A stretch of 64,000 nt of DNA from Bdellovibrio sp. (lineage in GTDB: Bacteria > Bdellovibrionota > Bacteriovoracia > Bacteriovoracales > Bacteriovoracaceae): contig JACPIU010000015.1 of NCBI GenBank assembly GCA_016187935.1, forward strand, positions 1 through 64,000, written 5' to 3'. Shown here piece after piece: positions 7,804 to 10,653 of the stretch; the stretch's first letter is position 1; every line of letters starts with the position of its first letter. Under the pieces are notes generated by a model, which was not told the origin of the DNA, made no database searches, and was given only the letters and a program-made list of their open reading frames with translations. Both the position numbers and the translations under genes were made by a program.

Positions 7804-7947
7804 ATGAAAAATTTAATCCTGCTTACCCTTATTGGCATTGTTCCCTCTCTGTTATTCGGCGGTGATAAAACGCAAAAAGAATTATGTGCTGTCGGGCTGT
7901 CCGAATGTAATGGCAAGTTGAAATGTATTCCGTCTGTCTATGATTAG
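7804..7947 (+). pseudogene. N-terminal fragment (signal peptide) of the interrupted secreted protein
   Basis: ATG at 7804 opens a signal peptide (MKNLILLTLIGIVPSLLFGG) followed by a Cys-rich start (ELCAVGLSECNGKLKC). An in-frame TAG at 7945-7947 ends it after 47 codons. The same frame continues without further stops to 10653, and the residues after the TAG (NSYGKFSKHGLCLAP) carry on the Cys-rich pattern. So this is the separated 5' part of one 949-codon gene. TAAAAT lies eight bases before the ATG. A nonsense mutation, a sequencing error or stop-codon readthrough could explain it. Confidence 0.75.
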
Positions 7948-7983
7948 AACAGCTATGGGAAATTTTCCAAGCATGGACTGTGC

Positions 7984-10653
7984 TTGGCACCTAAAGCGGA
8001 AAAGGAAGCATGCGGCCAGCGATCTTTGGCCAATAGTTGTGAAACTGGATTCTCCTGTATTTCACCCACGATGGCCGCTGCCGCAAGCTTGTCGGGGGTT
8101 TGCCAACGGTTAGATGGGCTATCACTCGAACAAATGGTCACTTCTGGTATTGTTGCTAAACCCGCAACGTCGAATCCGCTGAAAAAATGCAAATACTTGC
8201 CTGGTAATTATTATCATTCCAATGGGAAAGATGATGATGACTGCTGTGGAATCACCAGACAAATTTCCAATCCCAATCTTCCCAATAAATTTTTGGTTGA
8301 TATCAAATATTGCGATTGGGTTCCGGAAGGCAGTTCCAAGAAAGTCACCAGTCCTTCGTTTTGTGGTAAAACACAAAGTGGTAGTTCGCTTGCATGGAAA
8401 GGTGTCATGACTGTCGGGGCACCTGCGGAGGAACCGGTCTACGGAACTTGTGAGGCACCGACTCCTTATGATGGCCATGTTGTTTTAGACCCAGGGCCAG
8501 AGTTCACTTTCGACCAAGCTCAATGTATGCCCGTTTTTAAACCTGAAGATTTAGAGTCACGAGTGGGGTTAATGAGTGACTGGCAGGGAGTTGGGGATAT
8601 GCGGTATTGGTTTACTTCACTCCCCAGCGAGAATTTTTATCGCGTTGGTGATGAAGCTTTTATACTGGCCTATATCTGGCTTTTTAAAAACACTGATCTT
8701 GATAGTTTGACTGGAACAAATTTCAAGGCAAGAGACTTAGCAAAAAAACTTTATGATATGTTCGTATTACACTACTCAAAAGGAGTTCAAGATGGCATGG
8801 ACTTAATGCGGCAATTGGAAAACATCAAAAATTGCATCTCTATTCAGGGCCCCTTGGCCCTCCAGCTTCGCTATCAGATAAGTCTTATTATGGAGCAGGC
8901 CCTTCTTGGCACGATTCGGGCCTATCAATGTGGTGGGGTGGAAAATTTAGACCCTCACACCTTGAATTGTACAGGCCCAGAGAACGCCTTTTTTGCCAAG
9001 GATTTCGGCAATATCACGTCTTCTGCCGAGGAAGAATTTGTTCGCTGTTCCGACCCTTTTATTAATGGTTGTGAAAAAGAATACTACTTGTATGACTGGG
9101 ATGATAATCAAAGAAACGATTTTATTATTAATACCGTTAAGAGGGCCACAGGGGAAGATCTATGGCTCTATAAGGCCTCGCTGTTTTTCGATGATATGGC
9201 AATGGATACGCTCATCGACCCCCCCGTGAACAAGCAATGGGTTCCGCTTAAATTTAAGGATGATTTTAAAAATCTGATTAACGAGTTGAATGCCAAAAAT
9301 CCCACCATTCAGATCGTTATGCCGATGTCGGGCGGGCGAGAACCAAATTTTCATTGGCAGGTGATTTTACAACCGGAAAAATTAACTGAAGCTTTTCCCC
9401 AGAAACCACCTTATGAAGGAATGTCATTTCTCCATTATCACGAGAAAATGCCATATATAACCGAAGCGGGTAAAGTGTATCAGAACACACTGAGGGCCAA
9501 TCCGGGGGCCGATGAAACGCAATTTTGGAATGGTCCCCTTACTCTAGCTTCTGAAGCAGTTCGAATTATGGAGCAATATAGTTGTTCAGATGAACCCATG
9601 CCACTCAACATCCGTGGTGCGGCCCTTCAGGCCCATTTAAGACAACTGCATTATGTCTTTCATAAAGATGTTGTATCCCAGCGGTTGGCCAGATTAATAC
9701 AATATTATGTTAAAAAGTTAGAATCGATCCAAATGGAAAAAGAATGTTTGGTAGAAATGATCAAAGCAATTTCAAAAGTGGCAGGCATTGACACCTCTGC
9801 ACCCGATTATGATCCGGCGGTGATTACACTTGATAACTCCCGACATAGTTGTCCTGGTTCGGATAGCGGGGGAGAAGGCGGTGACAAACAAAAGAATGGA
9901 AAGAATTTGTTTGGAGGGAAATCTCTGGCCTTGGCAGAACAGGTAGGGACACCTGTCGCTGGTGGTAGCGTTGTTCCAAATAACAACGGCGTGGAAGTCA
10001 GTGTCCTTGACCCCAATTTGGAAAGTCCGACACTTTCTGAGTCCACTTTGTTAGGCACTCATAAAACGCAATCTTTAAATTTGGCATCCCTGGTAAAATC
10101 AAAAGCGACAATGAATACAAATGGACGTGATGGTGCTATGGCCGCAGTGAAGATGGCCATGAAAAAACAAAAAGAGGCATCGCTTTTAAAATTGAAAAAG
10201 TCATCAGAGAGTGGATTCAGCGACCCCGAAATGATTAATGATGAAAGATTAAACAGAATTGCTATGCATGTTTTCAAAAAAAGTTCTTTGACCAACACGG
10301 CACCGATGAGTAATTCCAGCCAACTGAATTCACCTACTGCACCCGAGATCACAGAAGCAACCGCGGCCGATGTAAATGTTGCCACCGTAAGCAAGGCGGT
10401 TGAAAAGAAATTTGGAGTCATGCCGGAAGAGCGAATTAAGATTGGCCAGAATACAAAGAATGCAGGGAAGCCTGGTCCGACCAAATCATCTGAAACTTCT
10501 TACACAGGTCTTTCATCCGAACATGAGCAAGAGATTTTGAACAATATTGCTAAGGAAGATTTGAGCGAAGATGAAAATGATACTCTCTGGGCGAAAGTCA
10601 CTAAGGCCTATATCAAAAGCTATAAAAAATTATTTTCGTCTAAAAGCCAATAA
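7984..10653 (+). CDS. Main part of a large secreted protein of unknown function, 5' part cut off by TAG
   Basis: 889 codons when counted from the first usable start after the stop, a TTG at 7984. It lacks its own signal peptide, which is encoded by 7804-7947 in the same frame. Features: Cys pairs in the first 130 residues (ACGQRSLANSCETGFSC, DDDDCCG), a long non-repetitive middle with several cysteines, and a C-terminal 280 residues rich in Ser, Thr, Lys and Asn that look unstructured, with a Gly-rich piece (GSDSGGEGGDKQKNG). No known domain recognised. It ends 11 bases before a convergent regulator gene. Function unknown; the intact product would be exported. Confidence 0.8.
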   Translation: MAPKAEKEACGQRSLANSCETGFSCISPTMAAAASLSGVCQRLDGLSLEQMVTSGIVAKPATSNPLKKCKYLPGNYYHSNGKDDDDCCGITRQISNPNLPNKFLVDIKYCDWVPEGSSKKVTSPSFCGKTQSGSSLAWKGVMTVGAPAEEPVYGTCEAPTPYDGHVVLDPGPEFTFDQAQCMPVFKPEDLESRVGLMSDWQGVGDMRYWFTSLPSENFYRVGDEAFILAYIWLFKNTDLDSLTGTNFKARDLAKKLYDMFVLHYSKGVQDGMDLMRQLENIKNCISIQGPLALQLRYQISLIMEQALLGTIRAYQCGGVENLDPHTLNCTGPENAFFAKDFGNITSSAEEEFVRCSDPFINGCEKEYYLYDWDDNQRNDFIINTVKRATGEDLWLYKASLFFDDMAMDTLIDPPVNKQWVPLKFKDDFKNLINELNAKNPTIQIVMPMSGGREPNFHWQVILQPEKLTEAFPQKPPYEGMSFLHYHEKMPYITEAGKVYQNTLRANPGADETQFWNGPLTLASEAVRIMEQYSCSDEPMPLNIRGAALQAHLRQLHYVFHKDVVSQRLARLIQYYVKKLESIQMEKECLVEMIKAISKVAGIDTSAPDYDPAVITLDNSRHSCPGSDSGGEGGDKQKNGKNLFGGKSLALAEQVGTPVAGGSVVPNNNGVEVSVLDPNLESPTLSESTLLGTHKTQSLNLASLVKSKATMNTNGRDGAMAAVKMAMKKQKEASLLKLKKSSESGFSDPEMINDERLNRIAMHVFKKSSLTNTAPMSNSSQLNSPTAPEITEATAADVNVATVSKAVEKKFGVMPEERIKIGQNTKNAGKPGPTKSSETSYTGLSSEHEQEILNNIAKEDLSEDENDTLWAKVTKAYIKSYKKLFSSKSQ

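Follow-up and report, generated by a model that had tools for sequence, protein, structure and literature searches.

A probable recent nonsense mutation in the conserved gene of a large exported cysteine-rich protein of Bdellovibrio sp., and a C-terminal domain confined, within its phylum, almost entirely to one bacterial family

Analysis of a 64,000-nucleotide stretch of Bdellovibrio sp. DNA (the window, G000:C3:1-64000) revealed a single in-frame TAG in the gene of a large, cysteine-rich, exported protein that is conserved in related genomes, and the interruption is probably a recent nonsense mutation, either fixed in the strain or present as a segregating null allele. A recent single-base change would have created the TAG and knocked out this copy of the gene. 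Ribosomes would then halt at the 47-codon mark, giving off little more than a short fragment with the signal peptide, and beyond the background leakage of stop codons the exported protein would not be made, because the remaining 901 codons have neither a well-placed ribosome-binding site near the break nor a signal peptide. The window belongs to a draft genome of 4.4 Mb in 48 contigs (99.25% complete, 2.9% contaminated), the only genome of the species among those compared, and the stop is seen in that genome only. The parts of the broken frame are as follows.

7804-10653, + strand: the whole frame, from ATG at 7804 to TAA, with TAG 7945-7947 as its sole interruption (translation)
7804..7944, + strand: 5' part of 47 codons, the signal peptide and the onset of the Cys-rich region (translation; alignment with the intact sister gene)
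7945..7947, + strand: the in-frame TAG, where the two genus relatives compared carry sense codons
7948..10650, + strand: 901 sense codons in the unchanged frame, with no further stop or frameshift
10492..10650, + strand: conserved C-terminal domain of about 50 amino acids, common to proteins of this bacterial family that are otherwise unrelated
10651..10653, + strand: the natural stop TAA (translation)

Translation bears out the original prediction that an open reading frame with a signal peptide, starting at 7804, is halted by the TAG, and the roughly 900 further open codons that it announced number 901. The signal peptide, called by eye, occupies approximately 7804-7863, and the protein starts with MKNLILLTLIGIVPSLLFGG. 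A mechanical list of open reading frames gives the part after the break alone, as a frame of 889 amino acids starting with TTG at 7984; gene callers would mis-annotate the broken gene as a protein lacking a signal peptide. The window protein found no usable family in Pfam or NCBIfam and no match in a sequence search of the PDB. For the sister protein, the AlphaFold model rests on an alignment of two rows, has a mean pLDDT of 28.2 and is useless. A search of the same genome for a paralogue or second allele returned a single full-length locus and a short C-terminal match on contig C21.

The sister species (Bdellovibrionales bacterium GWA2_49_15, MEPP01000001.1) has an intact orthologue of 948 amino acids, which aligns through the break over residues 1-948 of 948 with 72% identity. 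Since the sister protein aligns from end to end, a single frame arising by chance is excluded, which the length of the frame alone would not do. Identity to the sister is 66% over the 47 codons before the break and 73% over residues 1-888 of the 889-residue frame after it. The sister codon at the position of the TAG is a sense codon differing by a single base, the flanking residues are nearly identical, and a sense codon is also found there in a more distant relative, G001 (about 45% identical, with the gene split across two contigs). In agreement with the prediction, cysteines are conserved on both sides of the break in these alignments, and the homologues start upstream of the stop, at the signal peptide, rather than after it. 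The gene order is likewise shared with the sister: a metallophosphoesterase lies upstream, and a response regulator, a histidine kinase and a radical-SAM protein lie downstream. When the downstream part was compared with 59 genomes, five matched at E <= 0.001, namely the three of the genus (the genome itself, the sister and G001) and two, G013 and G026, that match at the C-terminus only.

The rest of the gene was said to be free of decay, and this holds: beyond the lack of any second stop or frameshift, the relative-rate test found no excess of amino-acid changes on the window branch (46 vs 41, p 0.59). Against the sister, dN is 0.198 and dS 1.34 before the break, and dN is 0.175 and dS 2.10 after it; with dS close to saturation, these values average a long history and carry little information on the period after the stop. 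In simulations of neutral decay without indels, the chance of zero further lesions fell from 0.32 at a divergence of 1% to 0.03 at one of 3%, and with one indel per ten substitutions it was 0.02 at 1%. Neutral decay since the stop is therefore limited to roughly 1-3% divergence, which makes the stop a recent one, provided that it is real and inactivates the gene.

As a check for recoding, 523 open reading frames of the sister (800 kb) were searched against 1.26 Mb of the window's genome, the window included. A match was obtained for 185, and the 131 alignments with at least 45% identity were counted (53,537 codons), leaving out the 54 below that threshold. Thirteen stops occurred in seven of the 131 alignments. 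One alignment with four stops is a shadow frame, because the opposite strand gives a stop-free match of 340 amino acids at 75%; another, also with four, was read as having an over-extended start, since the stops lie upstream of the conserved stretch. Three single stops fall at the first residues of their alignments and one near an alignment end, so that a conserved gene is interrupted in frame at 7945 alone, by the TAG. No frameshifted pairs were listed among the 131 alignments.

A nonsense mutation is consistent with the unbroken orthologue that the sister keeps among the same neighbours, the sense codon one base away, the sense codon in the more distant relative, the position of the TAG as sole interior stop in the compared sample, and the absence of amino-acid acceleration or any other lesion. 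Such stops are reported, in excerpts of Belinky et al. (2021; PMC7918605) on in-frame stops within bacterial genes, to be short-lived and widespread. The window TAG resembles the cases described there in standing alone in its frame, in differing by one base from the relatives' sense codon, and in interrupting a gene under purifying selection with no other decay; like the worked example of that text, in which a TAG stands against a glutamine codon, it is an in-frame TAG. However, the same excerpts describe a set restricted to stops common to at least two species, whereas the window stop is seen in one genome, and thus conservation cannot be claimed for it and an artefact has to be allowed for. 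Moreover, the low dN/dS on both sides of the break would be expected equally if the consensus were wrong or the gene still worked. The main rival to a nonsense mutation is a one-base consensus error or a mixture of strains, with the sense codon present in the true genome or in the greater part of the population. We consider this rather unlikely, though it agrees with the single-base distance to the sister codon in an otherwise faultless gene and with the draft state and contamination of the assembly. Assembly errors are a documented origin of false internal stops in the portions of Cooley and Wright (2024; PMC11017572) that treat spurious stops, and the window case shares with those an isolated one-base difference in a draft assembly with the rest of the gene sound. 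In contrast to the genomes of that study, which come with reads, it is judged from the assembly alone, in which internal stops are not in excess over the compared sample. With a single interior stop and no frameshifted pairs listed among 131 alignments the assembly looks clean, and real nonsense alleles in about one gene per hundred would probably not be unusual. On either account there is nothing out of the ordinary in the stop, be it a null allele by one base or an assembly error.

The original prediction had named a nonsense mutation, a read error and programmed readthrough; the first two fit the data, and the third gained no positive support. In functional readthrough the TAG would reduce expression while the full-length protein is still produced and selected. 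Downstream of the TAG the frame is whole and has a history of purifying selection (dN 0.175, dS 2.10), and excerpts of PMC7918605 argue that many in-frame stops reduce expression without death of the gene. Yet the selection signal is mainly older than the stop, neither of the two genus relatives conserves the stop, and the 100 bases 3' of it fold little better than shuffled sequences (z -1.19; 23 of 200 shuffles equally or more stable), in a test that would miss weak or pseudoknotted elements. Nor was a suppressor tRNA detected. The CUA anticodon was absent from the 30 tRNAs of an Rfam search (150 of 215 candidates scored), but that list is incomplete, missing for example Cys, Phe and Ile tRNAs, and a direct search for a CUA-anticodon pattern was therefore added. 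It gave 15 places vs 23 with a control pattern; one of the 15 falls within the Arg(UCU) tRNA, and ARAGORN found no tRNA at the other 14, although the pattern would pass over any tRNA whose T loop is unusual. Altogether, readthrough is improbable. Selenocysteine-type decoding was also considered and rejected: the nine matches to RF01852 are all below its cut-off, and those that could be placed are ordinary tRNAs. A genome-wide change of TAG into an amino-acid codon, which has nothing in its favour except the single TAG, is effectively refuted: besides the failure to find a CUA tRNA and the solitary interior TAG in 53,537 codons, among 125 orthologues whose 3' ends coincide, 25 finish with TAG, and RF1 is present (495.9 bits, above its cut-off). 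Translation might instead restart after the break and give a cytosolic form without the signal peptide, for which in-frame TTG or ATG codons are available at 7984, 8071 and 8134. This is very improbable, as the in-frame starts up to 8293 have Shine-Dalgarno matches of three bases at most with long spacing, matches of four bases occur only at 8407 and 8599, within the conserved region, and internal starts would leave a Cys-rich protein with no signal peptide.

The C-terminal domain is a side result more interesting than the stop that led to it. It has the approximate form ExDSLFxxVTKAYxRNYxKLLxxKK within about 50 amino acids and ends otherwise unrelated proteins, most of which bear a signal peptide. 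A profile of 34 rows matched 115 of 368 genomes of the phylum at E <= 0.001: 114 of the 129 genomes of the window's family (the other 15 being listed without a match) vs one of 239 elsewhere (E 4.4e-4). The domain is thus near-universal in one family and almost absent from the rest of the phylum, where distant forms could escape a profile built from the window's family. At E <= 10 the window's genome gives 13 matches, ten of them at E <= 0.001.

From the domain loci (window 10492-10650, L197-L227 and L238-L247), 42 tagged frames were translated, of which L246 failed the E 0.05 threshold. By a crude hydrophobicity rule, 36 of the 42 have a start resembling a signal peptide vs 111 of 271 control open reading frames of at least 450 amino acids; among the other six, five have a signal peptide by eye and one is truncated by a contig end. 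In the 41 frames within the E 0.05 threshold, the end of the domain is never more than 14 residues from the C-terminus. The bodies outside the domain form 17 clusters among 39 bodies, with frames of 250 amino acids or fewer (4 of 41) left out of the clustering, and the body of the window protein showed no resemblance to 31 others (best E 0.23). Pfam and NCBIfam yielded no convincing family for 33 domain members, the most common NCBIfam match being NF038033 in four of them. One frame, G066:C107, had been taken for a second broken relative on account of a listed TAA, and was dropped on finding 862 amino acids open from signal peptide to tag.

These features suggest that the domain is possibly a sorting or anchoring tag. 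Tentatively, the window gene could be one of about a dozen genes of its genome that combine a signal peptide with the domain, the latter serving as the tag of an uncharacterised, family-specific route of envelope targeting, and the stop would remove one dispensable cargo. A true sorting tag would offer a testable handle on how large proteins of these bacteria reach the cell surface or exterior. The domain is undescribed: no account of such a C-terminal tag was found in the excerpts of the literature consulted, those of PMC11656739 included. The combination of an N-terminal signal peptide with a short conserved C-terminal domain on unrelated proteins recalls type IX secretion cargo, whose general features are also given in excerpts of PMC12618676. 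Unlike that cargo, the domain fits no described type IX family (33 members, Pfam and NCBIfam), and the best match to the PorU sortase model NF033707 in the genome, 66.6 bits, is far under the cut-off of 420. The partial matches to this model lie at G000:C5:64286-65068 (L249, 66.6 bits) and G000:C48:158963-159448 (L250, 25.9 bits) and perhaps represent a related peptidase.

The C21 match noted above belongs to a short protein, encoded by a frame of 131-138 codons, that extends scarcely beyond a signal peptide and the domain and occurs in all three genomes of the genus.

G000:C21:10179-10349 (L216): short signal-peptide and domain protein, window's genome
G002:C5 (L226): the same, sister species
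G001:C419 (L227): the same, more distant relative
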